64,000 bases of DNA, taken from the NCBI RefSeq assembly GCF_014334015.1, contig NZ_CP060488.1:1322501-1386500 (forward strand). The letters are read 5' to 3'. Position 1 is the first letter of the stretch. Every line of letters starts with the position of its first letter. Below, piece after piece: positions 13,595 through 32,968 of this stretch. Both the position numbers and the translations under genes were made by a program. The notes beneath the pieces were generated by a model that saw nothing but the letters and a program-made list of their open reading frames with translations, searched no databases and was not told where the DNA came from. This DNA comes from Bacteroides sp. M10. Its GTDB lineage: Bacteria > Bacteroidota > Bacteroidia > Bacteroidales > Bacteroidaceae.

Positions 13595-13603
13595 ACGATT
13601 AAA

Positions 13604-15289: not shown

Positions 15290-15306
15290 ATCTTATTTGA
15301 TAAGAT
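15290..15306 (-). terminator. Small hairpin over the last stop codon of the PUL 2 operon
   Basis: ATCTTAT (15290-15296) pairs with ATAAGAT (15300-15306) around a 3-nt loop that overlaps the stop codon of the EEP gene. A weaker 5-bp hairpin follows at 15271-15288. There is no strong T-run, so function as a terminator is a guess from position. Confidence 0.3.
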
Positions 15307-16087
15307 AAGTAGCCACTACCGGATAATGATCCGATTCTTTATCTGCCCAATAACAAACATTGTACGCCTTTACTGTAAAGGCTTCATTCGGAGCATAAAT
15401 CAGCCAGTCGCAGGTATAAGTCGGACTTGGAACGGGCACCGTCCACGGAGCAGCGTCGCTCAAACAGTTTACTGTGAAATACTTCTGAAAAGCAGTCATG
15501 GTAACAGAACCACGACGGGAGTTCAAATCCCCACCGAGGATGATTGGTTTGTCCAGTTGTTCCATACAAGCAAGAATCTCATCAATCTGTTTCAGACGGG
15601 CAGCATCTTCGTACTTATGGTCCAGATGTGTCGTAGCAAAATAAAATTCTTTGCCCTCTTTCATCACTTTTACATAACCAAACGAACGAACGTAGTCGTT
15701 TTCCTTCAATACACTCAATTTAAAGCTTTTCTCTTCCGAAATCGGAAACTTGGAAAGAATTACATTTCCATAGTCTCCTCCGGTAGGAATATCAAGTGCA
15801 TGGGCAAAATAATAATACTTCATGCCTGTCAGTACCGATAATCTTTCAGGAGTATTCCAGGGATTAATCTCTGTATTTCTTTCTATTTCCTGAAGTGAAA
15901 CAATGTCCGGATCTTCCTGTTTTATAACCTCGGCTATTTTATCAATACCTTGTTTGCGCCCACTGTAAGTATTGTAAGTCATCGCTTTTACTGTAACTTC
16001 TTTCTGCTTATTTTTGTCTCTCTGCGCCATCACAGGGGACAACAGACAGCATACCAGAAATAACGAAATGCATATTCTGAAATTCAT
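15293..16087 (-). CDS. Secreted EEP-fold (endonuclease/exonuclease/phosphatase) hydrolase, copy A
   Basis: Metal-dependent phosphoesterase-fold protein of 264 residues, exported by a signal peptide ending near PVMAQ (residue 22). Every residue of the EEP active site is seen: Asn39 (TYNTYSG), Glu67 (LQEIE), His154 (THLDH), Asp187 and Asn189 (GGDLNS), Asp227 (CDWLIY) and Asp253-His254 (SDHYPVV). It should therefore hydrolyse a phosphoester or phosphodiester. Family members include DNases, sphingomyelinases and inositol phosphatases, and the sequence does not say which applies. It is the last gene of the operon starting at 25458 and is a clear paralogue of the EEP gene two positions upstream (shared TYSG/IYSG, GGDYGN/GGEYGN and SDHxPVVAT words). 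Its presence in a GH130 locus suggests a phosphate-bearing glycan. Confidence 0.85.
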   Translation of the reverse strand: MNFRICISLFLVCCLLSPVMAQRDKNKQKEVTVKAMTYNTYSGRKQGIDKIAEVIKQEDPDIVSLQEIERNTEINPWNTPERLSVLTGMKYYYFAHALDIPTGGDYGNVILSKFPISEEKSFKLSVLKENDYVRSFGYVKVMKEGKEFYFATTHLDHKYEDAARLKQIDEILACMEQLDKPIILGGDLNSRRGSVTMTAFQKYFTVNCLSDAAPWTVPVPSPTYTCDWLIYAPNEAFTVKAYNVCYWADKESDHYPVVATYLIK

Positions 16088-16148
16088 ATATCGTCAATTA
16101 GTGAGTGAATGTTATCCTTCAAAACAATCTTTTTTACCTAATACCCTA

Positions 16149-17528
16149 TTAATCCTTTTCTATCTTGCGAATCTTATGATTCCAATAATCTGAAACATAC
16201 AATGCACCGTCGGGCCCGAATTGCACTCCTTCCGGATGATTGAACTGTGCCTTATCCAATGGCCCATCCGTAGTACCGGAAGTACCTGTACCTGTATAAC
16301 TTGTCACTACTCCATCAGGTGTAATTTTCGCGATACGATGCTTTTTACGGACTGCTACATAAATATTGCCTTCTTCATCCAAATCCATCTGACAAGGTTC
16401 TTGGAGTCTGGCATCGTTTCCTTGTCCTTCTACAAAGCCTGTTTTATCATACTGTCCAATCCAAATATGAAGATTAGAAAATAATCCGGTCACCATATCA
16501 TAATCCCCTTTATAAATCACATCCTTCTCCTGTGAACTCATATACACTGTAGTTCCTGCCTTATCGAAAAGGATGCAACGGATCTTCACTTTCGATGCAT
16601 TCTTTCCGTCCGCATCGGGAAGTTGTTGTCCGGTAGTCACCATCGTATTCTGCTCCGGATCATATTTGTAAATCATGGCATTTCCATGAGCTACGGAAAA
16701 AACTTCTCCCGTAACAGGATGTACGCCTACATTGGTAACACCGTTACCTAAAGACGAAGTTATCGACCATATTGCAGCAAGACTTCCAGTATCATACTGA
16801 TGCGCATCATTACTCCATGACATAGTGGCGATATGTGCGCTTCCGGAACCATTCGCATCATTAGACAAGAACAAAGTGTTGCCATCCAGTGAGAAAGCGA
16901 TATTCATCATTCTAAATGCAACTCCACCCGTTACGTCCCCACGAAGAAAAGTAGCTACTTGATTATCTTTTGCAATACGAATATCACGGTCATCGTCTTC
17001 CACAATATACAAAGTGCCTTCCTTATCAAAGGCTATAGAACCTGGTTTCCAAAGGACTGCTTCCATCAAGGAACCCTCTTTTTTCTCTGTTTTGGCAGCA
17101 GGAACATAGCTGCCGATATACGAGCTTACAATAGGAGACTGAGAATATTCAAATTCTGTTTTATAAGTCAGTTCCTGAATATTTTCCCCCTGACCGATAT
17201 ATATTTTCACCGGACCGGAGCCAGAACCTCTCTGCACATTGGCAGTAATAATATTCCCCAAAGCACCTGTCACCTCTGCATCTACTCCGTTGACCGTCAC
17301 TCGGATATTATCCAAGTCCGTACCAAAATGAGTACCATATAAAGTCAGGCTAGTAGACTTTCCACCTGCCGTCGGAGTATACATCGTAATCTTAGGAGTA
17401 ACTTCACCTTCTCCGATTTCAGGCGTCATATCCTGCCGATTCTCATCTTCGCAACCAGCAAAACCTACTGCTCCAAGCAATAGTGTATATATAGAAAATC
17501 GTTTCAAATGATGAATCAATGTTTTCAT
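16149..17528 (-). CDS. IPT/TIG plus NHL-repeat beta-propeller lipoprotein
   Basis: Surface-type lipoprotein of 459 residues. The signal ends at VGFAGC, with Cys26 acylated. An IPT/TIG domain lies at about 45-130 (KITMYTPTAGGKSTSLTLYGTHFG). A six-bladed-type NHL propeller fills about 155-459, with repeats such as PGSIAFDKEGTLYIVEDDD, EPCQMDLDEEGNIYVAVRKKHRI and HPEGVQFGPDGALYVSDYWNHKI. This architecture is common in Bacteroides PULs at surface-binding positions, and some propellers of this type are lyases or hydrolases. No catalytic residues can be assigned here. It lies between the two EEP genes (17 bp after one, 61 bp before the other), so it probably acts on the same glycan outside the cell. 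Binding or scaffolding is the conservative reading. Confidence 0.8.
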   Translation of the reverse strand: MKTLIHHLKRFSIYTLLLGAVGFAGCEDENRQDMTPEIGEGEVTPKITMYTPTAGGKSTSLTLYGTHFGTDLDNIRVTVNGVDAEVTGALGNIITANVQRGSGSGPVKIYIGQGENIQELTYKTEFEYSQSPIVSSYIGSYVPAAKTEKKEGSLMEAVLWKPGSIAFDKEGTLYIVEDDDRDIRIAKDNQVATFLRGDVTGGVAFRMMNIAFSLDGNTLFLSNDANGSGSAHIATMSWSNDAHQYDTGSLAAIWSITSSLGNGVTNVGVHPVTGEVFSVAHGNAMIYKYDPEQNTMVTTGQQLPDADGKNASKVKIRCILFDKAGTTVYMSSQEKDVIYKGDYDMVTGLFSNLHIWIGQYDKTGFVEGQGNDARLQEPCQMDLDEEGNIYVAVRKKHRIAKITPDGVVTSYTGTGTSGTTDGPLDKAQFNHPEGVQFGPDGALYVSDYWNHKIRKIEKD

Positions 17529-17545
17529 GTTTCTATCTTTTTAGA

Positions 17546-18379
17546 TTAATCGTTTATACTGAATGTAGCTACTACCGGAAAATGGTCTGATTCTACATAA
17601 GCATCATAATACACATCATAAGCCTTCGGAGCCATTCCTTTATCCGGGGTATACAACACGAAGTCAATAGCCTTTACCGGAACGGGAGTTCCGGTCGTCA
17701 ATCCATAGTTCCCGTTCAGGCAACCAATATCAAAACGCTCATACAATATCTTCATCGGACCCGAATCAGCCAACGCATTAAAGTCGCCGGTCAATATCAT
17801 CGGGGCATCCATCCCCTTCGTTTTTTCCAGAATAGTTGAGGTCTGATTGATACGGTTGGTTTCATTACCGACATGAGACAAATGAGTTACTCCGAAATAG
17901 AAGTTCTTCCCCTCTTTTTCTGTTTTCACGACTCCCATAGAGCGTGGGTAAACATCTTCCACGGTCTCTATTCTCGGTAAATCATAATTCACCTCGTCGC
18001 TTATCGGATATTTTGAGAGAATCAGATTACCGTATTCTCCACCATCCACATCACGGGTTTTAACGAAGAAAGCATATTGCATTCCCGTCACCTCTTTCAT
18101 CAAAGCAATAATATCCGCTTTCTCGACCTTATTGGTTTTCGTTTCAAACTCCTGTAAACCGGCCAGATCCGGATTTACCTTTTTAATCACTTGAGCAATA
18201 GCCTCCATTCCTTTCTTTCCGGAATAAACTTTCTGCCCGCTGTATATATTGTAGGACATGACTTTTACCAGTACTCCATCCTTATCGTCAGGAGGAGTTA
18301 CACCATCATCATCCGAACTGCAGCCGATAAACAAACCGTTTATCAACAGTACCAGTAATAAATAGAATTTATGTTTCAT
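17546..18379 (-). CDS. EEP-fold hydrolase lipoprotein, copy B
   Basis: Lipoprotein (signal ending GLFIGC, Cys20 acylated, then SSDDDG) with a complete endonuclease/exonuclease/phosphatase domain. Visible active-site residues are Asn44 (SYNIYSG), Glu77 (LQEFE), His166 (THLSH), Asp199 and Asn201 (TGDFNA), Asp239 (IDFVLY) and Asp265-His266 (SDHFPVV). The acidic SDDD after the cysteine resembles the surface-export signal of Bacteroidota lipoproteins, so this copy may face outward while copy A, with a signal peptide but no lipobox, would be periplasmic. It lies between the DUF3823 and NHL genes in the 25458-15293 operon. The predicted chemistry is metal-dependent phosphoester or phosphodiester cleavage; the substrate is unknown. 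Confidence 0.85.
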   Translation of the reverse strand: MKHKFYLLLVLLINGLFIGCSSDDDGVTPPDDKDGVLVKVMSYNIYSGQKVYSGKKGMEAIAQVIKKVNPDLAGLQEFETKTNKVEKADIIALMKEVTGMQYAFFVKTRDVDGGEYGNLILSKYPISDEVNYDLPRIETVEDVYPRSMGVVKTEKEGKNFYFGVTHLSHVGNETNRINQTSTILEKTKGMDAPMILTGDFNALADSGPMKILYERFDIGCLNGNYGLTTGTPVPVKAIDFVLYTPDKGMAPKAYDVYYDAYVESDHFPVVATFSIND

Positions 18380-18405
18380 TGTTACATTCTTTTTTATCGT
18401 TTACC

Positions 18406-19134
18406 TTATCTGATATCATTCACAGTTACTTCCACCACCCGGCTATAGTTCACATACGGTTTGCTTTCCGCCGTTACCGTAGCCGCAACACGCACGTATA
18501 CCCGATTCTTATTGGAAACAATCTTATAGTGATTCTCAATAAATTCGGTATCACTCATCAAGTCAATGACATGCGTACCACTGGCCTTTGTTCCCAATGA
18601 AGAAAGAGTAGCATGATTAGCATTGTTCACGTCTACTCCCGGAGCATAATTCCAGATAACGGAAACATCTGTCAGTTGCAATGTTTCGTTCGATGTCTTT
18701 GCATCGTAGGTAAGTGTCAGTTTATTATCTGCGGATACAGTAACATCAAGACTAATACGCGAAAATGGAATGGTATATAAGTCAACCTGCGTTTGTCCGT
18801 TCACGGTGACATATCCCTCACACACTCCAACAAAAGGGCCGTCCTTTGCCTGAATGCGGTAATTACCATTAAATACTTTGGTATGCTCAAATGTCCCATC
18901 CTGCCGGGCCCGGAAATCGACCGAAGCAGTAGCTCCGGTGTTCTGCTCATACAAACTCATCATCACCCCACTACTTCCCGGCACAGGCATGGGAATCGGC
19001 TCATTCGTTTCCTTGTCATAAATGGTGCCATGCACACCGCCATTCGGTGCATCATAATTGTCGATGTCATTTTCGCATGCTACCATGAAACAGGCGAATA
19101 ATGCAGTCAATCCTATATTTATTATTTTATTCAT
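18406..19134 (-). CDS. DUF3823-type lipoprotein, probable SusE-like glycan-binding protein
   Basis: Lipoprotein of 242 residues directly downstream of SusD (32 bp), the usual place of a SusE-like binding protein. The signal ends at FMVAC (Cys20) and is followed by ENDIDNYD. An Ig-like carboxypeptidase-regulatory segment (about 30-115) has the DUF3823 start GGVHGTIYDKETNEPIP, followed by NYRIQAKDGPF. A second beta-sandwich (about 118-242) ends in VNYSRVVEVTVNDIR. No catalytic residues are seen. DUF3823 proteins are nearly always found beside SusC/SusD pairs. The ligand is unknown; the operon's GH130 enzyme suggests a mannoside. Confidence 0.8.
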   Translation of the reverse strand: MNKIINIGLTALFACFMVACENDIDNYDAPNGGVHGTIYDKETNEPIPMPVPGSSGVMMSLYEQNTGATASVDFRARQDGTFEHTKVFNGNYRIQAKDGPFVGVCEGYVTVNGQTQVDLYTIPFSRISLDVTVSADNKLTLTYDAKTSNETLQLTDVSVIWNYAPGVDVNNANHATLSSLGTKASGTHVIDLMSDTEFIENHYKIVSNKNRVYVRVAATVTAESKPYVNYSRVVEVTVNDIR

Positions 19135-19166
19135 ATCGGTTTTTCTTTAACTTATAATTGAACATA

Positions 19167-21107
19167 TCAGTTGCCGTAACCCGGATTCTGCGTCATCAAC
19201 GGATTTGTACTCAAATCTTCCGCACGGAAAACCGTATAATAGTTCTTTTCGAGGAAAAGACGTTTTCTCTTTTCAGGTACCCCAGTTTCAAATGTGTATT
19301 TTCCACTCTTAACATTGTAATATGGACAAAGAGCTGTACCACGGAAATTAGTCAAGCCACCTTTGCTGACATCCAAATGGGCCAGACGCCAACGTTTCAA
19401 ATCCCAGTAACGATGCTTCTCAAAAGCAAGTTCCACTTTTCGTTCATGGCGAACCTTGTCAAGAGTCAAATCACCGGCAGTCAACAGTTTGATACCTGCC
19501 CTGCCACGAATCTCATTGATATCTTTCAAAGCCACATCCAAATGCTGATTCAACTCCATACAAGCCTCTGCACGATTCAGGTAGATTTCTGCCAGACGGA
19601 ACACAACCCAAGGGGTAGAAGAACGTTTTGCATCAATATCCGTATAATCCGTCAGACTTTCGTCCAAAAACTTACGCTGATAGAAACCTGTTTTGCTGGC
19701 GTCACCTACACTTAATGAACCACCGTCTTTCCCGGAAGTATTGTAAGTCTGTCCGTCGATAACTACCTTATTCTCCTTATCCGGTTGAGCGGAAGCTTCA
19801 TATTTGGTTCCTATTCCATCCTGTCCGTTGATTACTCCGCGCATCCACTCTATTTTACCACCGCCATATCCTTTATAATCAGCGCCAGGCAAGTAAACGG
19901 AACCTAATAAACGAGGATCTTTATTTTTAAAGATGTCATACGGACTGTCGTAGCTAATCGCCTTTCCACCGCTATCCTTCATTTTTAGTTTACCTTCTGT
20001 GCCGTCGATATATTCAAATTCCTCAACCATTTCCAGAACCGGAGACATACCACATCCCCAACCATCACCACGATATGAGAAAGGAACGTTCAGTTTATCC
20101 CACATATGCCCTTTTCCGGCAGCTACATTATACTGTTTCTGAAAAATATACTCTCCATTATCTCCGTTCACTGTCTTAGAAAAAAGATTATAAAAGTTCT
20201 GTGCCAGCTCTTCCGGATCCGTACTTGTCGACTTGTACAAGCTATATACACGAGGAACCATCTCATCCAAAATCTTTGATGAAGCTGTATAACATTCGTC
20301 AAAGTAACGCTCCGCTTCTGTCTCTGGAATATAAACATAGCCTTTGGAAACGGCTTCCCCCGTCAAGGTAAGTGTTTTAGAGTATTTGGCAATAGTGCCG
20401 GCATACAATGCTGCACGAGACCACAAAGCCAATACCGCCCCACGATTGGCCCGATATTTGGCATCGCTGTTGCGCACTTCCGGCAATGATCCATAGACGG
20501 CTTTACACTCATTGATTATAAAATCATACGTAGCTGCTTCCGTATCACGAGCCTGATACAGCGCTTGCGTATTTCCGGCGGTGTATTCTTGAGGAATAGT
20601 TTGCAAAGGCACACCTCCGTAACGTTTCACCAACCCAAAATACTGCATTGCACGGATAAAGCGAGCTTCTGCTCCAATCTCTTCTTTTTCATCCTCACTC
20701 AGCACTGAAGTCTTTTCGATATTCAGCAGGAAGTTATTTACGATACGGATTTGTTTATAACGAGTCACCATATCGTCATTAAATACATAATCGCCATAAG
20801 AATAAGTAGAATTTGATTTATCAAATGCACTCTCTTTCTGATAACTGGCCGTAGCCTCATCCGAAAGACTGGTCTGATTCGCCAAATTCGCTTTCTTGCT
20901 TCCATACCAATCATCAAACTCATCCAGCTTTAATCCGGAATCATACATATCCGCCAAAACGGCTGTAATTGCTTTCGGATTCTGCCAAATTAGATCCGGA
21001 GTGTTAACCCCACTGGTACTTTCACGATTCAGGTAATCATCACATCCCGTCAATCCGAGGATAGATACTCCGGCTATCCATATATATTTCAAATAATTTC
21101 TATTCAT
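19167..21107 (-). CDS. SusD-family outer-membrane lipoprotein (PUL 2)
   Basis: Large SusD homologue of 646 residues, about 100 longer than average. The signal ends at LGLTGC (Cys22), then DDYLNRESTSGVNTPDLIW. The helical SusD core shows ARFIRAMQYFGLVKRYGGVPLQT at about 150-172. Inserted loops in the middle (about 300-490) account for the extra length and would shape the glycan surface. The C-terminal SusD motif is LAFEKHRYWDLKRWRLAHLD, and the protein ends with LSTNPLMTQNPGYGN. It forms the SusCD pair with the gene 14 bp upstream. The ligand is not deducible from sequence. Confidence 0.92.
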   Translation of the reverse strand: MNRNYLKYIWIAGVSILGLTGCDDYLNRESTSGVNTPDLIWQNPKAITAVLADMYDSGLKLDEFDDWYGSKKANLANQTSLSDEATASYQKESAFDKSNSTYSYGDYVFNDDMVTRYKQIRIVNNFLLNIEKTSVLSEDEKEEIGAEARFIRAMQYFGLVKRYGGVPLQTIPQEYTAGNTQALYQARDTEAATYDFIINECKAVYGSLPEVRNSDAKYRANRGAVLALWSRAALYAGTIAKYSKTLTLTGEAVSKGYVYIPETEAERYFDECYTASSKILDEMVPRVYSLYKSTSTDPEELAQNFYNLFSKTVNGDNGEYIFQKQYNVAAGKGHMWDKLNVPFSYRGDGWGCGMSPVLEMVEEFEYIDGTEGKLKMKDSGGKAISYDSPYDIFKNKDPRLLGSVYLPGADYKGYGGGKIEWMRGVINGQDGIGTKYEASAQPDKENKVVIDGQTYNTSGKDGGSLSVGDASKTGFYQRKFLDESLTDYTDIDAKRSSTPWVVFRLAEIYLNRAEACMELNQHLDVALKDINEIRGRAGIKLLTAGDLTLDKVRHERKVELAFEKHRYWDLKRWRLAHLDVSKGGLTNFRGTALCPYYNVKSGKYTFETGVPEKRKRLFLEKNYYTVFRAEDLSTNPLMTQNPGYGN

Positions 21108-21121
21108 TGTCTTTATAGATT

Positions 21122-24100
21122 TTAGAAGGTTACATTCACACCAAAGTTATATGTCTTCATTTGCGGGTAATAGCGCACTCCGCTAGAGTTGCTTTCCGGG
21201 TCAACATTCTTCATCAATCCATCACGATTAGTGAAAGTCAGCAGATTGTTGCAGTTGATGTAAAAACGCACACGGTCGATAGCTGCTTTCTTCGTCAATG
21301 CTTTAGGTAGTGTGTACCCTAGCTCCAATGTTTTCAGACGCAGATAACTTGCATTGTGCAGTGACCATGAATTACCGGAACGATTATCCGCAACACCCGC
21401 TACACGAGCGGCAGGCATATACCCGGAAATCCACTTACTATAAGGATCGGTCGGGTCTTCCCGATGCCAACGGTCGGTCATGATGGCCAGTCCATTACCC
21501 AAACCCTGCTGGATAAATGGGTCCAGAATATCCCCACTGACATAAATATCATGACCTGCCGCCCCCTGAAAGAATACCGTCAGGTCGAATCCTTTATATT
21601 CTCCGGACATATTCAATCCATAATACATACGTGGAGTAGCACCATGTCCGAGTGGCTGCGTATCGTTATCATCAATAATGCCATCCCCATTATAGTCTTC
21701 AAATTTCAGATCACCTGGCATTAATGAACGGTTACCGTCTTTATCCTGAACCGGTGAATTCAAGATTTCCTCGAAACTGGAGAACTGTCCGATAACTTTC
21801 TTTCCCCAACGAATATCTTTATAACGACCGTTCGTGTTATTACGCCAATCATCATACATATTGGTAGAAGCAGCTCTCTCTACATAATCATACTTAATCC
21901 GGGTAGTAGAGAAATTAGCCGACACATTATAATTGAAGTTACCAATCCGGTTCTTATGTCCAACTACGATCTCAAATCCCGTATTAATATCAGAATTCAG
22001 ATTCTCCTGCGGCATTGATTCTCCGAAAATAGTAGGTAATGATCCTACACGAGTAGCAGGAAGTCCCGAACGGTTTCTACGGAACCAATCGAATTCTACG
22101 GAAATCAATCCTCTATGATAAGAGGCTTCAAAGCCAATATTCATAATCTTTGATTCATACCAGGTCAGCCACGGATTGGCCATACCTACCGTAGTCATAC
22201 CGGAAGTCACTCCGTTGCTGCCCATAATATAGCTCCCATGAGATGTATATCCATCCAGATATTGAAAAGCGTCGAAGTCTCCTTCATCTCCCACTTTGGC
22301 ATACGAAGCACGGATTTTCAGGTTGTCCATATCAGGCAACAGTTTCTTGAAAAAGGCCTCTTCGGAAACACGCCACCCTAAAGACACACCTGGAAAAAAT
22401 CCCCAACGGTTACCTTCACGGAATTTATAGGTTCCATCGTAGCGGAAATTGAACTCAACAAGATAGCGATTGGAAAAATCATAATTCAAACGCCCCACCA
22501 GACCGGCATGTGCCGTTTCCTGTGTTTTACCGGAGGCTTCCTGATTGGTTTTATCTCCATAATCCAAGTCAGGAATGAGTCCGATAGCAAAATCACGTGT
22601 TCCGGTCACCCAACTTCTTTTGTCATTATACATTTCCCATACCAGCATAGCACCAATATTGTGCTTCTTGGCAAACGTATTATTATAGTTCATTGAGAAC
22701 TGATAAGTCGGTTTATCATAATTTTCCAGTTTCGATTCCAGATGTGCGGTATTAATCACCTTCTCTATATACTCTTCATTGGCATAATCATAAGTATATT
22801 CCGACAAATCCTTCCTCCATGTTTTCCATTCCTTATTTGTATAATCATAAGCAACCAATGCTTTTGCCATCAGTCCTTTCACCCAGGGAAGTTTCCAGGT
22901 AATAGCCAATGAGCTGTTAAATTCACGACGCAGACGATCTTCATATCCGCTGTCATCCGAACTGGATACATGTACAGGATTAGCCATATCACCTACCGCT
23001 CCCCAATAATCCGGATTATCATTGGCATACATGGAATAAGTCGGGATTGCCATTTGTGCCGAACGGAACAGATTATCGCCGTTATAAGGCTTCTTGCGGT
23101 TATCAAACCGTCCGCTCAAACGCAACTCTACGTTCACCCCTTTAGCAACTTCTACACTTAGGTTTGAACGGACATTGTAACGTTGGTAGTTCCAGTCGCC
23201 CGAACGGATGATGCCGCCCTGATCCATATATCCGATAGACATATAATATTTCACCTTCTCCGTACCTCCCGTCATGCTCAAGTTGTGTGAAGTTTGAGGA
23301 GCTGAGCTACGCATGGTTTCATTCCACCAATCCGTACCTGCCGTACCATTCCGGTAAGCTTCCAGCTGCTCCTGCGAGTAAGCAGAAGCTCCGCGCCACG
23401 GATTCGCATTATGAATCGCTTCATTGTAAAGTGAAGCATACTCATAGGCATTCATCATTTCCGGATAGCGGGTCACTTTCTGAAAACCTACGTAACCATT
23501 ATATTCTATCTTTGCCTTTTGCTCCGTTCCTTTTTTAGTAGTCACCAATAAAACTCCATTAGAACCTTTAAAACCGTAAACAGCTGCGGCGGCATCCTTC
23601 AGTATGGAAATTGATTCGATGTCATTCGGGTCTAGTTGGGCATAATCACGCTCGATACCATCCACAATCACCAACATACTTCCATATCCGCGAATATCAA
23701 CAGAAGCTCCGTCATCGCCAGGACTACCACTACGTTGCACGGCACGCAGCCCCGGCAAACGTCCGGCAAGCATATTTGTCACACTAGGAGCTTTTACCTC
23801 CATCAACTTATCCGAAGAGATGGCAGCTACCGATCCAGTCACAGAAGCTTTCTTCTGAATACCATAACCTACTACTACCACTTCATCCAACGTTTCCGTA
23901 TCTTCCTGCAAAGTTACTTTCAATCCGGCTTGTCCGTTTACTTTCACTTCAGCCGTTTTATATCCGATATAAGATATTTGCAACACTCCGTTAGCCGGAA
24001 CTGACAAAGTGAACTTACCATCCAAATCAGTAATCGTTCCTATACCGGTACTCCCCTTCAACTGTACCGAAGCTCCGATAACAGGTTCTCCATTGGCATC

Positions 24101-24289: not shown

Positions 24290-24297
24290 AGATTAAA

Positions 24298-25458
24298 TTA
24301 GTTATGTGTTTTGAGTTTTAAATCCATATTATTATCACATATCGCTACTGCAACCTGCGAATCAGCGCAGCCATAATAGAGATATAGTTTATTTTTGAAG
24401 TAAGCCAATCCTTCTATAAATACTGTTCCGTCTTTATATTGACCACTCTTCTCAAAAGCAGCCTCAGGCACAAAGAATGGTTTATCCAAACGACCCAGTA
24501 CTTGATAAGGATCATCGGTATCGAACAAAAACTGCCCTGCACAATAAGCTCCAGCCGGATATTCCGGATCTCTTTCTTCTTTATATCCGTTCTTACCATT
24601 ATACAGTAGGACAATACCATCTGTTGTTTTTATGGCAGGAGGACCACACTCTGTCAAACGACTATCAAAATAGCCGCTGCGGGGTTTGGCAATTTCTCTC
24701 AATTCATTATTCTCGTTCAATACCGGTGTCCAATCTGTCAGGTTGTCGGAAGTTGCTGCACATACGGCATTTTCCCCCCAATACATAAAATATTTGCCAT
24801 TCACTTTCTCAATGACAAGTTTTCCATCCTTCACCCCGGTAACAATAGAAGCAGATTTGCTCGCTATATTGGCAAAACGTCCGTTATACGCTTTTGCAAA
24901 AGCAAGTCCATGCTTTGTCCAGTTCTTCAGGTCGGTGGAAGTAGCAACTGCCAGACGGGGGAGATGACGATTCCAAGCTGTATAGAGCATTACATATAAT
25001 CCATCCTCCGTCATTGCCACACGCGGGTCTTCGCAACCTCCTTCCCATTCTATTTCTTTATAGTCGTCTTCGGAAGGGAATAATACAGGGGCATCCGATT
25101 GTTTCATCGTCACTCCATCCGTACTTTCTGCATAGCCAATGCGGGATGTTCTCTTTCCTATACCTTGCGCTGAATTATCTTCTGCCCGATAGAGTACTAC
25201 AATCTTTCCATCTTTAACGGTGGCTGCCGGATTGAAAGTATCACTCTCCTCCCATCTTACCAACTGCTTGCGCATCGGGCATTGAAAAGTAGTCGGTTGT
25301 GGAGAAATCACCGGATTCACTCCTTCCGGACGAACGAAAGGACCTATTATCCAATGTTCGTTCTGCTCTTCAACAACAGCAGATGTTTGCTTCTGACCCG
25401 AGCATCCGGCAAGTGTCATCATACTAATTAAATAGATTACAGATTTTAGTTTTATCAT
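24298..25458 (-). CDS. GH130 lipoprotein, beta-mannoside-active
   Basis: Glycoside hydrolase family 130 five-bladed propeller of 386 residues, exported as a lipoprotein (signal ending MTLAGC, Cys19). Family marks are NPAATVKDGKIVVLYRAED (about 76-94), GGCEDPRV with the proposed general acid Asp144, a central NGKYFMYWGE, and FIEGLAYFKNKLYLYYGCAD near the end. GH130 enzymes are phosphorylases or hydrolases of beta-mannosides, and lipoprotein members outside the cytoplasm are expected to be hydrolases because phosphate-dependent catalysis suits the cytoplasm. The length and export recall the BT3780-type beta-1,2-mannosidases, but I cannot assign the subfamily by eye. First gene of the main PUL 2 operon, 50 bp downstream of a -7 box and 79 bp downstream of the shared HTCS motif. 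Confidence 0.88.
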   Translation of the reverse strand: MIKLKSVIYLISMMTLAGCSGQKQTSAVVEEQNEHWIIGPFVRPEGVNPVISPQPTTFQCPMRKQLVRWEESDTFNPAATVKDGKIVVLYRAEDNSAQGIGKRTSRIGYAESTDGVTMKQSDAPVLFPSEDDYKEIEWEGGCEDPRVAMTEDGLYVMLYTAWNRHLPRLAVATSTDLKNWTKHGLAFAKAYNGRFANIASKSASIVTGVKDGKLVIEKVNGKYFMYWGENAVCAATSDNLTDWTPVLNENNELREIAKPRSGYFDSRLTECGPPAIKTTDGIVLLYNGKNGYKEERDPEYPAGAYCAGQFLFDTDDPYQVLGRLDKPFFVPEAAFEKSGQYKDGTVFIEGLAYFKNKLYLYYGCADSQVAVAICDNNMDLKLKTHN

Positions 25459-25507
25459 ACGTCATTTTTTAGTTTTTCCGAATCAGTCGTTCCTTGTTTT
25501 CTGTCAG

Positions 25508-25580: not shown

Positions 25581-25623
25581 ATAATTCATTCGTTTGCAAC
25601 GACGATTTAACGATTTTGAAATA

Positions 25624-26871
25624 TTAGCGAATAGCTTGATTCTGTCTGATGATGTTCCGGGCTAATGGATAGGCAATCAACTGCAAAGCTCCCACTAGGA
25701 TCAATGCGTACTTCAATGCAAAATCCTGTGATATGACAAATGCGAGTACCATAAAAAGTATTAGTCCGAAAGCACGTCCCAGAAATAGTCCGAACTCATG
25801 GCTTAAAATATAGGTATATTCATTTCTTTTTTCGATTTTTACTACTGCATCGATGGTTTGCATCATAATAGGGTAATAAGGCAAGTCAAACAATGGCTGA
25901 AAGATCACCTTACAGAGGACAAAGATAATCACTCCGGTGGCTGAAAACAAGATTCCGTTGAACAGAGTACCGATAAAAAAGACAAGTAGCCCGGCTATAA
26001 ATACCTTCGACCGGTCTTCAGGTTTGGTTATTCGTCCCAATACATAAACCAAAACAGCTGTCAGTGTACCACTGATTCCCTGTATTAAACCCAGTACGCC
26101 TTCATCACCTACTAACTTCAGAACCAGAATAGCAGGAGCGGTCACCAAAAATCCCTGTACCATTCCTTTCAGGGAAGCCAGCAACAACATTTTTTTCCAA
26201 AGTGTGCAAAACCGGAAATACAGAAAATTCTTCTGCACCGGATTGGCGAACTTACCACGCCATAAAACGGCTACAGCAAACAAAGTCACTATGATTACTC
26301 CAACCGTCACCAACCGATAGGCTCCATTAATATCAATCAGGCATCCCATTATTTCCCTGCCATCTATCTGACTGATAAATGCTCCAATCAATAAAGGTAC
26401 AGTAATCGAAGTAATGGAAAAGAAAAAAGACTCCAGCCCGAAGAAGTAGTTGCGACTATCATCTGTCGTGTTATTCAGAGTCAGCAGATAGCGATTGGTC
26501 CAGAAGAAGCCCGATGCAGCTCCAAGTACAAATCCAGCTATACCCAATTCCACAAAGCCTAATGACTTTACCAGCATCATGGCAAACATCGACAATCCAC
26601 TAACTAATATCCCTCCTGCATACAGCATCTTCACACTCACATGTCGCAACAAGAAACCATTCACAAATGAGGTAGTGATGATACCAATGTACATGAAAAG
26701 CTGATAAAAAGCCACCGAAACCGGTTCACTGGTATGGCGCATCACATAAGCACCCACGAAAATCTCAACAACAGGAAGCACCAGCGCATAAAGAAGATTA
26801 GTCATCAGCAAGACCCGTACATTAGAAGTTTGCTGTTTGAAGAACTGATACTCTCTTTTTAGTTTATTCAT
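25624..26871 (-). CDS. MFS sugar transporter (PUL 2)
   Basis: Inner-membrane MFS permease of 415 residues with about 12 hydrophobic segments starting at residue 18 (VRVLLMTNLLYALVLPVVEIFVGAYVM). It has a distinctive GFFWTNRYLLTLNNTTDDSRNYFFGLESFFFS stretch at about 121-152 and no signal peptide. It is the second gene of a two-gene operon with the cytoplasmic GH130 (16-bp gap). The likely job is to import the mannosyl disaccharide or short oligosaccharide that the GH130 enzyme then splits. MFS transporters beside GH130 phosphorylases are a known arrangement in Bacteroides mannoside and N-glycan pathways. The specific sugar cannot be read from sequence. Confidence 0.85.
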   Translation of the reverse strand: MNKLKREYQFFKQQTSNVRVLLMTNLLYALVLPVVEIFVGAYVMRHTSEPVSVAFYQLFMYIGIITTSFVNGFLLRHVSVKMLYAGGILVSGLSMFAMMLVKSLGFVELGIAGFVLGAASGFFWTNRYLLTLNNTTDDSRNYFFGLESFFFSITSITVPLLIGAFISQIDGREIMGCLIDINGAYRLVTVGVIIVTLFAVAVLWRGKFANPVQKNFLYFRFCTLWKKMLLLASLKGMVQGFLVTAPAILVLKLVGDEGVLGLIQGISGTLTAVLVYVLGRITKPEDRSKVFIAGLLVFFIGTLFNGILFSATGVIIFVLCKVIFQPLFDLPYYPIMMQTIDAVVKIEKRNEYTYILSHEFGLFLGRAFGLILFMVLAFVISQDFALKYALILVGALQLIAYPLARNIIRQNQAIR

Positions 26872-26887
26872 TATCTATTTATTTATA

Positions 26888-27934
26888 TTACGACTTTAAT
26901 GAACGGAGAATCTCTGCAATAGACAACTCCGCCCCACAGATTACTTCATCACTGGCACCATAATAAAGCCTTATCTTATCTCCCTCTACCAAATGTCCGT
27001 TGGTGAAAACTACATTCCCGAAAAATCCGGTTTGTTCGTAAGGAGCAACAGGCTCCATGATAGGTTCTTTACTTCGGGCAATTACCTTTGAAGGATCATT
27101 TAAATCAAGTAGAAGAGCTCCCAGACAATAACGGTTTTGATAGTCCGCACCATGATAAATTTCCAACCACCCTTCCTCTGTACAAATAGGTGCCGCTCCT
27201 GCACCCACGCGGGCACAGTCCCAACTATCAGGACGGGTAGTTGCAATGCAACAGTGGTTGCCCCAATGCAGTCGGTCGGGTGATTCGGCAAGCCAAATAT
27301 AGTTGCCACCCAACTCTGGGCTACTCGGACGATGCAGTGCAAGATATTTTCCGTTCACTTTCTCTTCAAACAGCGCGCAATCTTTATTATGAGGAGGGAA
27401 AATCATGCCATAACGAGTATAGTTTTTCCAGTCATAAGTATGAATCAGCCCTACACCAACAGCTACAGAAGAGACTTCCGTAAACGTAAGATAATAACCA
27501 TCGGCAGTAGTGGCCACCCGGCAATCTTCAATGCCAAAAGCCTCTAATGCTCCTTTACCAAAAATAGGAGGATAATCCGGCTCTTCCTTGAAGTGAATTC
27601 CGTCTTCACTCGACACCAGTCGGAGATAAGACATGGTAGTCAGATAATTCTGCCCTGCATATCCTATCACACGAGGATCAGAAGCATCCAGTTTCGGGTC
27701 ATTCTCATCGAAAGAGAGCACTTCTATTTTTCCATCTCTATTATATACGGGAAAACTAATAACTCCCTGTTTCTGCACAGGCCGTTCGGCCACTCGCAGT
27801 AATAACCAAATTTTTCCGTCGAAACGGAACACGCCGGGATTCAGGAAACAGGTGATTTCCATACCTTCTATTCCTGGTTGTAAGTCGGAGGGTTTCAACA
27901 ATGGGTTTTGATGAAATCGTTTTGCAATATCCAT
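26888..27934 (-). CDS. Cytoplasmic GH130 enzyme, probable beta-mannoside phosphorylase
   Basis: Family GH130 propeller of 348 residues without a signal peptide. Landmarks are FLNPGVFRFDGKIWLLLRVAE (about 30-50), FGIEDCRV with the proposed general acid Asp137, ARVGAGAAPICTEEGWLEIYHGAD (about 241-264) and GFFGNVVFTNG near 307-317. Cytoplasmic GH130 proteins are usually inverting phosphorylases making mannose 1-phosphate from beta-mannosides; BT1033 of B. thetaiotaomicron, for example, acts on Man-beta-1,4-GlcNAc. The gene opens an operon with an MFS importer and sits under copy 2 of the HTCS motif, so import and intracellular phosphorolysis are coupled. Which linkage it uses, and whether it is truly a phosphorylase, needs the phosphate-binding residues checked against structures. 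Confidence 0.85.
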   Translation of the reverse strand: MDIAKRFHQNPLLKPSDLQPGIEGMEITCFLNPGVFRFDGKIWLLLRVAERPVQKQGVISFPVYNRDGKIEVLSFDENDPKLDASDPRVIGYAGQNYLTTMSYLRLVSSEDGIHFKEEPDYPPIFGKGALEAFGIEDCRVATTADGYYLTFTEVSSVAVGVGLIHTYDWKNYTRYGMIFPPHNKDCALFEEKVNGKYLALHRPSSPELGGNYIWLAESPDRLHWGNHCCIATTRPDSWDCARVGAGAAPICTEEGWLEIYHGADYQNRYCLGALLLDLNDPSKVIARSKEPIMEPVAPYEQTGFFGNVVFTNGHLVEGDKIRLYYGASDEVICGAELSIAEILRSLKS

Positions 27935-27974
27935 TTTCAGATTATTAAATATGTGTTGTTTTTATTTCTGGTGA

Positions 27975-28047
27975 CAAAGCTACCCTGCACAACAACGGAA
28001 AAGGTGTACTATATTCTCAAAAGGGTATACAGGTGTTGTACAGCATA
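27975..28047 (-). promoter_or_regulatory. Promoter and HTCS-type activator motif of the GH130-MFS operon (copy 2)
   Basis: Second copy of the 44-bp motif (28004-28047), again 21 bp upstream of a minus-strand -7 box, here TAGCTTTG (27975-27982). The start codon of the GH130 gene is 40 bp beyond the box. The region is shared with the HTCS gene on the other strand, and the motif end lies next to that gene's own -7 box at 28052. The same site could thus serve both divergent units. Confidence 0.8.
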
Positions 28048-28051
28048 TTTT

Positions 28052-28059
28052 TATCTTTG
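28052..28059 (+). promoter_or_regulatory. -7 box of the PUL 2 HTCS gene
   Basis: TATCTTTG on the plus strand, an exact Bacteroides -7 match, 31 bp before the chosen HTCS start codon at 28091. It gives a leader of about 25 nt. A second TATCTTTG at 28079-28086 is too close to the start codon to serve. Confidence 0.5.
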
Positions 28060-28090
28060 TTTTCTTATTTTTCCTCTCTATCTTTGCGAC

Positions 28091-31000
28091 ATGATTCTAC
28101 GAAAACACTCATATTTCCGCTACATCTGCATCCTTATTTATTCATGCCTGATGCCTGTTTTATTACATTCCCAGAATGTAGTGAAACAGATTTCGAATGC
28201 AGACGGGTTATCCAATAATTCAGTGAATTGTTTTCTGGAAGATTCGGAACATACTCTCTGGGTAGGAACATGGGACGGGCTGAATGCCTACAACGGACGT
28301 AGCTTTAAAACCTATTCTTATAATAAAAAAAATGCAGGATCTATCAGTAATAATGTAATCTGGCAAATTATCGAGCAAAATGACTCTGTCTTGTGGGTAT
28401 CTACCGACTATGGTGTCAACCGGTGGAAACGTTCCACACAGCAATTTACTCCTTATTATTTAGGTACGCAGAACAATCCGCCCAAACAAGAGAAATCATT
28501 CCTGCTGGGTATCACTTCCGGCAAATACATTATCTGCTATGTGAAGGAACAAGGTTTATTCTATTTTGACGACCGGAAACAGGACTTTGTTCCATTGAAG
28601 AATAATCTTCCTGATGACATCAAAAATTTCGTTATTGATTCCAAAGACCAAGTATTCTTCCTCACAGGACATGGACAATTATTACATTATCAACTATCTG
28701 TCCATAGCTCTAATCCAGAACTCTCGTTCAAAAAAGAAATCAAACAACCTGCTTCCATTTCCGGCATTTATCTTTCTCAAGATTATCTTATCATTAACGA
28801 TGACCGGGCATTAACTGTTTCTTTGGACAACCGCATACTGAATAGCATAGATATTCCGGAAAATAAAACGGTTTCGCAAGTTATCTGCCACAAAGAGTAT
28901 CTTCTCATCAGCTTTATCGAAGGGGGATGTATCAGGTATAATCTGGAAGATAATGCTTCAATGGAATTACCTCAATTACCAGCGAAAGCATCCATTTTCA
29001 CCATCTACATCGGTTCGCAGAATATACTCTGGGTAGGCACCGACGGGCAAGGAGTATTGGAAGTCTATGAACACAGTTCTCCATTCCACACCGTAAAAAC
29101 TGATTATCCCGTACGTTGTTTTTGCGAAGAAGATAATGGTAATATACTCGTGGGAACCAAAGGAGAAGGAATTCTGCTGCTTGACAAACAGGAACGGCAG
29201 GTCGAACCTTATCTGTCAACCGGCAACGGATTGATTTCCAATTCTGTCTATACTATCCGAAAAAATATGTCCGGAGACATATTTATCGGAACCGAGGGAA
29301 CGGGCATCAATTATATTCCACTTAATAGCAGTCAGGTAAAGAAGTTAAGCATTCCTGCTGAATATCCGACTTTCAAAGCTGTATACAGCATTCTGTTCAC
29401 TCATAACGACTCACTATTATGGTTAGGCACTTCCGGCTATGGACTTATCAAACTAACCTTGCAAAGGGAAGGAAAAAGTTATAAAGTGACAGAAATGAAA
29501 CAATATAAATCTCCCGGACCTTCCTCACCAAGTAATAACATCATTTATTCGGTCATTGCCGGGTATAATGAAAATGAACTTTGGCTAGGCACACGAGGCG
29601 GCGGAATCAATAAGTTCGATATCGCATCCGAATGCTTCCAACAAATTCATGAGATAGACTCTACTTTATCCCTAACCAACAATGATATACTCTATCTGAC
29701 CAAAGGAGATTCTGCCAGCATTTGGATAGGCACCAGTTACGGCCTCAATCGATTATTTCCGGCAGACATTCCGCCATCTATTATGGAATATACGGATCAC
29801 AACGGACTACCCAACAATACGATTCACGGTATTCTGAAAGATGAAAACGGTAATATCTGGGCAAGTACCAATCAAGGTATCTCTTTTATTAATCTATCTT
29901 CGGGAAAGATTACTAACTATTCTTCCAGAAACGGATTACAAAATGATGAATTTTCCGATGGAGCGATTTTTAAGGATAAAGCAGGATGGTTGTATTTCGG
30001 AGGAGTCAGTGGGCTGAATTATTTCGATGAGAACAAAATACGTTTACGGGACCATATTGCTACTCTAAGTTTGAATAGTCTAAAAATTAATAATACCAGC
30101 CAAAACATTTACGAGCGTATTTTTAATCATACGCTCCGGCTCGACTATGACGAACCTTACATTACATTAGGGTTCACAGCACACGACTTTATCAACAACG
30201 AGAACTGCGAATTTAGTTATCGGATTATTGACTTCGCCGATGAATGGATTTACAACGAAAACAACCCCAATATCGTCATCACCAAACTACCTCCGGGGAA
30301 ATATAAACTGGAAGTAAAATGTACCAATGGTGACCGTGTATGGAGCAATCAGATCTACTCTCTTCATCTGGATGTCGCCTATCCCTGGTGGCTAAGTACT
30401 ACTGCCTTTATTATCTATTTTATTTTAATTGCTATTGCTATTTATATAACACAGTCCGTCATCAAGAATCGTATCCGACTGAATCGCCAGATTTTACTAG
30501 AACATATTGAAAAGCAAAATCAACAACGTATTCATGAATCGAAGTTGAACTTCTTTACGAACGTGGCACATGAGTTCTTCACTCCGCTAACACTGATATA
30601 TGGTCCGGCACAGCATCTGCTGGAAAAAGCAGACCTTGACAGTTATACGAAAAGGTATATCTACATCATCAAGAACAATGCCGACCGGATGCAGAAACTC
30701 ATCAACGAACTAATGGAGTTTCGGAAAGCAGAATCGGGACATACGGCTATCTATGCAGAGAAAGTAGATATCCAGCTACTCGTTGATTATGTGTCAGACA
30801 ACTATACTGAAATTGCTGAAGAGAATAAAATAGACTTTAGTTTCAAAAGTAAAGAAGTGTCGTCTTTTACTACAGACCGGAATGCACTGGAGAAAATTAT
30901 ATTCAACTTATTATCTAACGCCTTCAAGTATACACCGTCCGGAGGATATATCCGGGCTGAAATAAGACAGAATGCCACTACCGGAACATTACATTTCCGT

Positions 31001-32074
31001 ATACGCAACTCTGGTAAGGGATTGACTGAAAAGCAAACGAGCGAAATATTCAGTCGCTTTAAGATTTTCGAGAGCAGTAACCTGAAGCACGCCGGAAGTA
31101 CCGGAGTGGGTCTGAACCTAACCAAAAGCCTGACTGAATTATTAGGTGGAGAAATCACTATAGAAAGTACTTTGGGAGAATATGTAGAATTCAATGTATC
31201 CCTACCTCCTATGCACGTGAATTCCGAAAAAGAAAGTCAGCCTAAAGAAGAAGAGACAGAGGTCAGTGAAATGCTTTTCATTCCTAAGCAGAAAGAAATT
31301 ACCATACTGATTGTAGAAGACGAAAAGAATATCCGGGAACTGTTGAAAGATATTCTGCTTCCCTACTATCAGGTTCGCGAAGCTGCCGATGGAGAAGAGG
31401 CGCTGAAAGAAGTAGAACAAAAGCAACCGGACATCATTATCAGTGATGTATTAATGCCCAAACTAGATGGCATTACACTGACAGATATATTGAAGTCTAA
31501 TGAACGGACAGCGCATATTCCGGTTATTCATATTTCTGCCAAAAACTCTATTGAAGACCAGATCAATGCCTATAATCACGGGACAGATTTGTATATCCCT
31601 AAACCTTTCCATCCAAGACATGTGTTGAGTGCGGTAGAGAATATGATTAATAAATACTCTCTGATGAAAGAGTATTTCAAATCCGGCCGTTCCTCTCTTA
31701 TTGTAAGGGATGGGATCACCATGCACAAAGAGGATGAATTATTACTGAACAAGATTATCAAGTTCATTGAAGATAATATCGACGATGAATCCATGAATCC
31801 GGATTCTCTTGCAGACTTTATAGGAGTAAGTAAAGCAGGATTGTACCGCAAACTCAAAGAATTGACTGAAAAAACACCAAGCGAGTTTGTCCGTACCATT
31901 CGTTTAGAGTATGCCGCTAGCCTGCTAAAAACAACTAAGCTCACCGTTACCGAAATTATGTATAAATCAGGCTTCTCGAACAAGTCTTATTTCTACCGGG
32001 AGTTTGCGAAATTGTACAATACATCTCCCAAAGAATACAGAAGCGAACAAACAGAAGAAAAAGATACTAAATAA
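28091..32074 (+). CDS. Hybrid two-component system (HTCS) regulator of PUL 2
   Basis: One-protein sensor, kinase, response regulator and AraC activator in the inner membrane; 1327 residues from this ATG. I chose it because it begins a signal peptide (MILRKHSYFRYICILIYSC, cleavage near LLHSQ) and lies just after a -7 box; an upstream in-frame TTG at 27908 would run through the promoter. Periplasmic sensor: two seven-bladed Reg_prop propellers (about 30-690, repeats such as LWVGTWDGLNAYNGRSF) and a Y_Y_Y domain (about 700-765). TM near 780. Kinase: AHEFFTPLTLI with the phospho-His, LLSNAFKYTPSGG, TGVGLNL. Receiver: LIVEDEKN and SDVLMPKLDG. C-terminal AraC helix-turn-helix. The duplicated 44-bp motifs upstream of the two minus-strand operons are probable targets. 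Confidence 0.95.
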   Translation: MILRKHSYFRYICILIYSCLMPVLLHSQNVVKQISNADGLSNNSVNCFLEDSEHTLWVGTWDGLNAYNGRSFKTYSYNKKNAGSISNNVIWQIIEQNDSVLWVSTDYGVNRWKRSTQQFTPYYLGTQNNPPKQEKSFLLGITSGKYIICYVKEQGLFYFDDRKQDFVPLKNNLPDDIKNFVIDSKDQVFFLTGHGQLLHYQLSVHSSNPELSFKKEIKQPASISGIYLSQDYLIINDDRALTVSLDNRILNSIDIPENKTVSQVICHKEYLLISFIEGGCIRYNLEDNASMELPQLPAKASIFTIYIGSQNILWVGTDGQGVLEVYEHSSPFHTVKTDYPVRCFCEEDNGNILVGTKGEGILLLDKQERQVEPYLSTGNGLISNSVYTIRKNMSGDIFIGTEGTGINYIPLNSSQVKKLSIPAEYPTFKAVYSILFTHNDSLLWLGTSGYGLIKLTLQREGKSYKVTEMKQYKSPGPSSPSNNIIYSVIAGYNENELWLGTRGGGINKFDIASECFQQIHEIDSTLSLTNNDILYLTKGDSASIWIGTSYGLNRLFPADIPPSIMEYTDHNGLPNNTIHGILKDENGNIWASTNQGISFINLSSGKITNYSSRNGLQNDEFSDGAIFKDKAGWLYFGGVSGLNYFDENKIRLRDHIATLSLNSLKINNTSQNIYERIFNHTLRLDYDEPYITLGFTAHDFINNENCEFSYRIIDFADEWIYNENNPNIVITKLPPGKYKLEVKCTNGDRVWSNQIYSLHLDVAYPWWLSTTAFIIYFILIAIAIYITQSVIKNRIRLNRQILLEHIEKQNQQRIHESKLNFFTNVAHEFFTPLTLIYGPAQHLLEKADLDSYTKRYIYIIKNNADRMQKLINELMEFRKAESGHTAIYAEKVDIQLLVDYVSDNYTEIAEENKIDFSFKSKEVSSFTTDRNALEKIIFNLLSNAFKYTPSGGYIRAEIRQNATTGTLHFRIRNSGKGLTEKQTSEIFSRFKIFESSNLKHAGSTGVGLNLTKSLTELLGGEITIESTLGEYVEFNVSLPPMHVNSEKESQPKEEETEVSEMLFIPKQKEITILIVEDEKNIRELLKDILLPYYQVREAADGEEALKEVEQKQPDIIISDVLMPKLDGITLTDILKSNERTAHIPVIHISAKNSIEDQINAYNHGTDLYIPKPFHPRHVLSAVENMINKYSLMKEYFKSGRSSLIVRDGITMHKEDELLLNKIIKFIEDNIDDESMNPDSLADFIGVSKAGLYRKLKELTEKTPSEFVRTIRLEYAASLLKTTKLTVTEIMYKSGFSNKSYFYREFAKLYNTSPKEYRSEQTEEKDTK

Positions 32075-32095
32075 CCATTTAACAATAAGAAGACA

Positions 32096-32968
32096 ATGAG
32101 AAAACTTTTGATTGTATTGGCGCTCTGTGGTGTGTCAATACTGAATGCGCAGCAACTAAATGTAGCCTCCTACAACGTACGAAACAGTAATCCCAACGAT
32201 GCCAAAGCGGGAAATGGCTGGGAACAACGCTGCCCGGTACTTACCCAGTTAATCACTTTCCATGACTTCGATATTTTTGGAGCACAGGAAGTGAAACATA
32301 ATCAACTGGAAGACATGCTCAACGCTCTGCCTGCGTACAACTACATAGGTGTAGGACGGGATGACGGCAAGACAAAAGGAGAATATGCTCCTATTTTCTA
32401 TCGGAAAGATAAATTCAAGCTACTCAAGTCCGGCAACTTCTGGTTGTCGGAAGACACTACAAAGCCAAATAAAGGATGGGATGCTGCTTATACCCGCATC
32501 TGCACGTGGGGAGAATTCAAAGACAAAACCGGTAAGTTCAAATTCTGGTTCTTTAATCTGCACATGGATCATATCGGAGTGGTAGCCCGCCGAGAAAGTG
32601 CCAAACTGGTTATTAGCAAAATTAAGGAAATGTGCGGCAAAGATCCCGTTATACTGACAGGTGATTTCAATGTAGACCAAACCAGTGAAAGTTATCAGGT
32701 TCTTCATGAATCCGGAATATTATCAGATTCTTACGAGGTAGCTCAAATGAGATATGCGACTAATGGGACATGTACAGGCTGGAATCCGAATACATATACT
32801 CCGAACCGTATTGACCATATCTTCGTAACCCCCAATTTTACTGTAGAGAAATACGGTGTATTAACAGATACTTATCGCACCAAGAACGAAACTACTGGAA
32901 AGTATGAATCTCATATTCCTTCGGATCATTTCCCGGTAAAGGCAGTATTAAGGTTTAATAGAAAGTAA
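32096..32968 (+). CDS. Secreted EEP-fold hydrolase, copy C, downstream of the HTCS
   Basis: Exported protein of 290 residues (signal peptide to about NAQQ, residue 20) with a complete EEP fold: Asn27 (SYNVRN), Glu65 (AQEVK), His156 (HMDH), Asp190 and Asn192 (TGDFNV), Asp240 (IDHIFV) and Asp277-His278 (SDHFPVKA). It belongs to a different EEP sub-branch from copies A and B. It has the RRESAKLVI segment and a GWEQRCPVL loop, as in the many Bacteroides exported endonuclease/exonuclease/phosphatase proteins of about 290 residues. It starts 21 bp after the HTCS stop, so the sensor and this enzyme share a transcript. Basal expression could then make the inducer from the substrate, a common PUL logic. 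The substrate is unknown. Confidence 0.85.
   Translation: MRKLLIVLALCGVSILNAQQLNVASYNVRNSNPNDAKAGNGWEQRCPVLTQLITFHDFDIFGAQEVKHNQLEDMLNALPAYNYIGVGRDDGKTKGEYAPIFYRKDKFKLLKSGNFWLSEDTTKPNKGWDAAYTRICTWGEFKDKTGKFKFWFFNLHMDHIGVVARRESAKLVISKIKEMCGKDPVILTGDFNVDQTSESYQVLHESGILSDSYEVAQMRYATNGTCTGWNPNTYTPNRIDHIFVTPNFTVEKYGVLTDTYRTKNETTGKYESHIPSDHFPVKAVLRFNRK

Follow-up and report, generated by a model that had tools for sequence, protein, structure and literature searches.

We analysed a stretch of 64,000 nucleotides from Bacteroides sp. M10 (contig NZ_CP060488.1, positions 1,322,501 to 1,386,500; called the window here, and numbered from its first letter), focusing on a cassette of eleven genes at 15293-32968, where the predicted open reading frames are all present. 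We found that this cassette is probably a polysaccharide utilization locus for beta-1,2-oligomannosides held by phosphodiesters, most likely those of Candida-type yeast phosphomannan or phospholipomannan. It encodes two GH130 enzymes, a SusC/SusD pair (SusCD) and three exported EEP-fold proteins, EEP_A, EEP_B and EEP_C. The undescribed part of the locus is the uncharacterised EEP group of which EEP_A and EEP_B are members.

GH130 and EEP proteins of the cassette

GH130_a (24298..25458, minus strand) carries a lipobox and is predicted to be an exported beta-1,2-mannosidase of the BT3780 type. It scored 662.7 bits on the curated equivalog model for this activity, NF058598, above the cut-off of 550, and all five other GH130_a proteins scanned also passed (661.9 in G1141, 608 in G056, 613.3 in G1053, 624.6 in G825 and 611.6 in G984; G numbers are our labels for the genomes compared). 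When the protein was aligned to PDB entry 5a7v, which we take to be BT3780 (the numbering is consistent with an offset of 4), the five positions checked were all identical to BT3780 E141, D142, K199, E227 and E268. In BT3780, already described as a beta-1,2-mannosidase, glutamates are reported to replace the phosphate-binding basic residues and a lysine to confer beta-1,2 specificity (PMC4599007). GH130_a also gave weak matches to GH32N and GH43 models.

The second enzyme, GH130_b (26888..27934, minus strand), is identical to Uhgb_MS (PDB 9eqq) at 273 of 346 aligned residues (79%). Uhgb_MS is described as a mixed-linkage mannoside synthase that makes beta-1,2-mannobiose from mannose 1-phosphate (PMC8950772). 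No signal peptide was seen in GH130_b when its N-terminus was inspected by eye and with a lipobox pattern. By analogy with its relatives, GH130_b is predicted to be a cytosolic beta-1,2-mannoside phosphorylase of the Uhgb_MS type; its score on the curated model NF050092 (BtaManbiosPhlase) was 419.1 bits, under the cut-off of 550, which was also not reached by its relatives in G056 (431.0) and G1053 (427.2). Plain beta-1,4-mannan or N-glycan was ruled out as a target by the beta-1,2 type of GH130_a and by the closeness of GH130_b to a beta-1,2-forming enzyme.

All three EEP proteins matched the Pfam family Exo_endo_phos (PF03372; E 3.1e-20 for EEP_A, 1.5e-19 for EEP_B and 6.9e-16 for EEP_C), and a motif script found the metal-site motifs YN, QE, H-x-x-x-H/H-x-x-H, GDxN and SDH in each of them. 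Across the alignments of EEP_B (53 rows: the query and 52 of 120 homologs listed, out of 146 found) and EEP_A (54 rows: the query and 53 of 77 homologs), the motif residues N, E, D, N and H either do not vary or are conserved to 90% or more. These results, together with N-terminal signals read by eye, bear out the original prediction of three exported EEP proteins with intact metal sites. Its division of the three into two sub-branches was also supported: EEP_A and EEP_B share 41% identity and EEP_C shares 26-30% with either, and a 54-row tree (20 alignment proteins and 34 from loci) placed EEP_C in a separate 8-row group with support of 100/100.

EEP_C (32096..32968, plus strand) resembles PDB entry 4c1r along its full length, the two being identical at 161 of 269 aligned residues (60%), with the motifs kept. 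The title of that entry, from which the activity is taken, names it the B. thetaiotaomicron mannosyl-6-phosphatase Bt3783, and EEP_C is a putative mannosyl-6-phosphatase by this relationship. For the profiles of EEP_A (15293..16087, minus strand) and EEP_B (17546..18379, minus strand), the top PDB match was in both cases the uncharacterised 4ruw, followed by sphingomyelinase C (2ddr, E 1.7e-14) for EEP_A and by 3g6s and 3teb for EEP_B. Their genomic context suggests a diesterase role for both.

Given these matches, the EEP proteins might attack a beta-mannosylated glycolipid, such as phospholipomannan or a lipid resembling glycosylinositol phosphorylceramide, at its inositol-phosphate or sphingolipid end, and so act like a sphingomyelinase or a glycosylphosphatidylinositol phospholipase rather than on a sugar-phosphate-sugar bond. 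Sphingomyelinase C is the top activity-named PDB match of EEP_A, with only 4ruw above it, the sphingomyelin phosphodiesterase model TIGR03395 is its best NCBIfam match, and a PGAP2IP match in EEP_B lies slightly under its cut-off. However, EEP_A reached 33.9 bits on TIGR03395, far under the cut-off of 248.2. The predicted structures of EEP_A and EEP_B, which are confident and have the EEP fold across the mature length, match every EEP subgroup shown, nucleases and phosphatases equally well, and lipid- or inositol-handling families are absent among the eleven proteins. We therefore consider cleavage at the lipid end unlikely.

Export signals were judged solely by eye and with the lipobox pattern, which gave two spurious matches (at C14 in EEP_A of locus L113 and at C10 in GH130_a of L105) and missed likely lipoboxes in GH130_a of L113 and in the SusD and DUF3823 proteins of L105. 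EEP_B has a lipobox whose cysteine is followed by SSDDDG, an acidic export signal (CSSDDDG). A lipobox with SDDD after the cysteine was found in six of the seven EEP_B-slot proteins examined, four of them from close Bacteroides relatives, and the seventh (G825) has SDKD instead. The surface-export consensus in B. fragilis is reported as SDDDD (PMC5080379), and EEP_B is predicted to reach the cell surface. The N-termini of the window's EEP_A and EEP_C look like signals but showed no lipobox, suggesting a periplasmic location, whereas the EEP_A proteins in G056 and G1053 are possibly lipoproteins.

Yeast phosphomannan and a proposed route for its use

In C. albicans, beta-1,2-mannose is described as attached to the N-glycan of phosphomannan via a phosphodiester and, in phospholipomannan, as joined to the lipid part through a phosphodiester (PMC4112839). 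A beta-1,2-mannosidase and a mannosyl-phosphatase relative with further EEP proteins, but without alpha-mannosidases, fits such a phosphodiester-linked side chain. As marks of a yeast alpha-mannan locus we looked for GH76, GH92 and GH125, none of which occurs among the eleven cassette proteins, and for a beta-1,2-mannosidase and a BT3783 relative with SusCD, which the cassette has. EEP_C paralogs of 57-58% identity adjoin GH76 in all five cassette-bearing genomes of the genus, as judged by coordinates (with only a partial GH76 match in G010). The neighbourhood annotated in G001 runs GH92, EEP, GH76 and GH125, followed by a GH130_a paralog (61% identity), so relatives of both known elements of the cassette are found in an alpha-mannan locus of that genome as well. 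The original prediction that no described system has this enzyme set was therefore too strong, since BT3780 and BT3783 are known and G001 has relatives of both in one locus. Its proposed target, mannosides joined through phosphodiesters, holds in outline as beta-1,2-mannosides carrying phosphate; the type of GH130_a, the closeness of GH130_b to Uhgb_MS and of EEP_C to BT3783, the phosphatases in some relatives of the locus and the C. albicans chemistry all agree with it. Nothing pointed in particular to inositol-anchored lipids.

Nine of the genes lie on the minus strand, in the order EEP_A, TIG-NHL, EEP_B, DUF3823, SusD, SusC, GH130_a, MFS and GH130_b, with gaps of 8-61 bp except for the 165 bp between GH130_a and MFS. 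Divergent from them, on the plus strand, are the gene of a hybrid two-component regulator (HTCS) and, after 21 bp, EEP_C. Pfam matched GH130 in the two proteins described above and no glycosidase family in the six cassette proteins that are neither GH130 nor EEP, confirming that the cassette has two GH130s and otherwise no recognised glycosidase. The NHL propeller noted earlier belongs to a lipoprotein with TIG and NHL domains and a lipobox (16149..17528, minus strand; PF01833, PF01436), probably a surface glycan-binding protein. The DUF3823 lipoprotein (18406..19134, minus strand; PF12866) is present in every annotated cassette and is probably a surface accessory protein. The SusD-like lipoprotein (19167..21107, minus strand; PF07980, PF14322) adjoins the SusC-like TonB-dependent transporter (21122..24289, minus strand; PF13715, PF07715), which scored 941.8 bits on TIGR04056 against a cut-off of 368.25. 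The MFS protein (25624..26871, minus strand; PF07690) is an inner-membrane transporter, probably of manno-oligosaccharides, and its gene adjoins GH130_b or sits one gene off in the cassettes that have GH130_b and in eight further loci. The HTCS (28091..32074, plus strand) is of the glycan-sensor type, with Reg_prop, Y_Y_Y, HisKA, HATPase_c, Response_reg and HTH_18 domains; its start is more likely the ATG at 28091 than the listed TTG at 27908.

From this gene set we propose the following route. At the surface, EEP_B would cut the phosphodiester through which a beta-1,2-mannoside chain is attached to the remaining wall, with the SusD, DUF3823 and NHL proteins as binders alongside it, and SusCD would bring the freed piece in. 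In the periplasm EEP_A would cleave leftover diesters and EEP_C would take off the phosphate monoester, while GH130_a would hydrolyse the beta-1,2-mannose bonds. The MFS protein would then move short oligomannosides inward, where GH130_b would phosphorolyse them to mannose 1-phosphate, and the HTCS would sense a mannoside and turn the locus on. More tentatively, EEP_A and EEP_B may found a group of carbohydrate-active phosphodiesterases that cut glycosyl phosphodiesters of the mannose-1-phosphate-6-mannose or mannose-phosphate-inositol type, which would let gut Bacteroides strip immunogenic beta-1,2-oligomannosides off yeast phosphomannan or phospholipomannan; we regard this as a possibility that falls somewhat short of probable.

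Yeast-mannan use by gut Bacteroides, including beta-1,2-mannosidases, has already been described, and beta-1,2 chains are reported to matter in immune recognition (PMC4599007, PMC4112839). In the literature searched, whose coverage excluded most subscription journals, we found no enzyme that cuts the phosphodiester holding beta-1,2-oligomannosides and no publication on this locus. The locus is compact and offers two small enzymes as candidates, so the phosphodiester question would be open to direct testing, and EEP_A and EEP_B could be a tool for stripping phosphomannan side chains.

Conservation of the cassette and the wider EEP group

Conservation was followed through EEP_A matches; the 149 genomes of the genus and the 201 of the G467 family are samples from larger groups, and locus contents are the genes within the retrieved stretches. 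At E <= 1e-40, EEP_A was found in 5 of the 149 genus genomes. Each of the five has EEP_B, EEP_C and the two GH130s clustered with it (judged by coordinates only for G1146, and likewise for EEP_C of G010), and EEP_C occupies the same cassette end throughout (in two genomes by coordinates only). The nearest genome compared, G001, has 26% of sampled words in common with the window. The same genes are present in named records of B. congonensis, Bacteroides sp. GM023 and B. acidifaciens, and B. acidifaciens DSM 15896 is one laboratory strain with the locus. The region past EEP_C varies from genome to genome.

Outside the genus, EEP_A matches were obtained in 5 of 101 genomes of the family of G056 and in 7 of 201 of the family of G467. 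G056, which is from another family, has the whole set, rearranged, together with an alkaline phosphatase (PF00245, E 2.7e-59). In the stretches covered, G1053 has all cassette genes but EEP_C, a relative of which lies elsewhere beside a Metallophos gene. Two genomes of Sphingobacteriaceae type, from another order (G825 and G984), have GH130_a, SusCD, DUF3823 and EEP proteins, and GH130_b was not found within the stretches covered. A LacI-type regulator and a Sugar_tr transporter occur in both, along with an EEP_C-like protein and a ROK kinase in G984 and a GH92 gene in G825.

In the EEP tree, EEP_A of Bacteroides, G056, G1053 and G984 formed one clade (99/97), with G825 next to it (95/91). EEP_A proteins of G001, G010, G013 and G1146 were outside the tree and were placed by their 88-100% identity, and the EEP_B-slot gene of G1053, split across two pieces, was excluded. 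GH130_a lies in the same cluster in 9 of 9 genomes whose EEP is in the EEP_A clade or at least 88% identical to it (G825 counted). Genomes with a cassette or one of the mini-loci described below have 1 to 7 GH130 matches each, and in the five cassette genomes computed 1.4-3.1% of random places fell 12 kb or less from a GH130; since the genomes share ancestry or transfer, the counts of EEP_A and GH130_a clustering are not independent draws. The association of the gene set is more than chance: it is seen again in a second family of the order and, in reduced form, in a different order.

The eight other matching genomes (G467, G952, G989, G903, G879, G1032, G1043 and G1045) have small loci of SusCD, an accessory protein and an EEP. 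No GH130 lies within 12 kb of these mini-loci, the nearest being about 17 kb away (G1043). Three of the eight (G1032, G1045 and G1043) also encode a purple-acid-type metallophosphoesterase, either next to the EEP or as a fusion with a second EEP. The G1043 fusion (L116, 8719-10575) is a 618-aa protein with both domains, encoded next to another EEP and SusCD. The remaining five all have an accessory protein of the BT_3987-like_N plus F5/8 type C kind; an extracytoplasmic function-type sigma factor stands beside the EEP in all four of them scanned, and no phosphatase was recognised among the genes examined. A diesterase beside a monoesterase is thus recurrent but not general. If the broader proposal for EEP_A and EEP_B is true, the mini-loci with a purple-acid-type phosphatase would apply the same two-step diesterase and monoesterase scheme to other phosphoglycans.

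Two further EEP arrangements were seen. In G035 (L031, 4269-9134) an EEP domain is fused to a GH89-type NAGLU enzyme and adjoins a second EEP, SusCD and a glycerate kinase gene, and in G392 (L078, 9359-17081) three consecutive EEP genes follow SusCD, again with a glycerate kinase gene downstream.

The mini-loci with SusCD and a metallophosphoesterase look like Flavobacterium loci in which SusCD and phosphomono- and diesterases are described as induced by depletion of inorganic phosphate (Pi) (PMC8115612). The cassette could likewise be a phosphate-scavenging system (PUS) that supplies Pi, with mannoside use secondary. However, it contains two GH130s and an HTCS regulator, which places it outside the definition of a PUS as SusCD and phosphoesterases with no carbohydrate-active enzyme (CAZyme), and its relatives are joined by LacI-type regulators and sugar transporters (G984 and G825) and by the ROK kinase (G984). 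PUSI and PUSII are themselves contrasted with CAZyme-bearing loci (PMC8115612). A primary role in Pi supply is very unlikely on this evidence. It is also very unlikely that the locus targets a beta-1,2-mannan or glycan free of phosphate, with EEP proteins that act on DNA or something unrelated: GH130_b and MFS do occur in EEP-free loci and the EEP proteins score weakly on nuclease models, but these scores are far under the cut-offs (exodeoxyribonuclease III models TIGR00633, 24 bits for EEP_A and 27.8 for EEP_B against 99.05, and TIGR00195, 25.5 and 19.7 against 182.55; 43.2 against 185 for EEP_C on a nuclease model), and EEP and GH130_a stay clustered across families, with further phosphatases in some.

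The EEP-free loci, found in eight genomes, combine GH130_b, MFS and SusCD, with an HTCS in seven of the eight stretches. Each encodes, between MFS and SusC, a protein of 571-580 aa (L057 12233-13972, L059 17006-18739, L061 13773-15506, L063 11920-13650, L065 7783-9525, L066 11777-13504, L067 10224-11948 and L068 13750-15465). These proteins form one family, being 56-86% identical to the L059 member, and have lipoprotein-like N-termini. None of the eight has a Pfam match and the L059 member also has no NCBIfam match; the family is possibly an unrecognised beta-1,2-mannan enzyme.

Neighbouring loci and comparison with known systems

The cassette is flanked by other SusCD loci. At 28-14522 of the window, SusCD is accompanied by Chondroitinas_B (PL6-like) and Alginate_lyase/Hepar_II_III (PL17-like) proteins, an MFS protein, an SDR protein and a GntR regulator, and the target is probably alginate. 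The locus at 33157-49510 has two Alginate_lyase-fold proteins, GH88, a SASA esterase and its own HTCS. That at 49557-60115 has GH31 and GH66 genes and is probably for alpha-glucan (dextran).

Among known systems, the cassette shares a GH130 beta-1,2-mannosidase, a relative of the EEP mannosyl-6-phosphatase and SusCD with the yeast alpha-mannan locus of B. thetaiotaomicron, where BT3783 is reportedly encoded in the same locus as BT3780. Unlike that locus, it is without GH92, GH76 and GH125, and it adds EEP_A and EEP_B from another EEP group, a GH130 of the Uhgb_MS type, MFS, DUF3823 and the NHL protein. GH130_b shares 79% identity with Uhgb_MS across 346 residues, and related genes are in the EEP-free loci of the eight other genomes. 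With sphingomyelinase C and other EEP phosphodiesterases, the EEP fold and metal motifs are in common, whereas the sphingomyelinase C comparison leaves EEP_A far under the curated cut-off and in a different gene setting. The Flavobacterium PusCD loci likewise have SusCD and exported phosphoesterases, but they are reported to be induced by Pi depletion and are contrasted with CAZyme loci (PMC8115612), whereas the window locus has two GH130s and an HTCS. We class the locus as a variant of the known yeast-mannan type, in which the predicted phosphodiesterase arm is undescribed.

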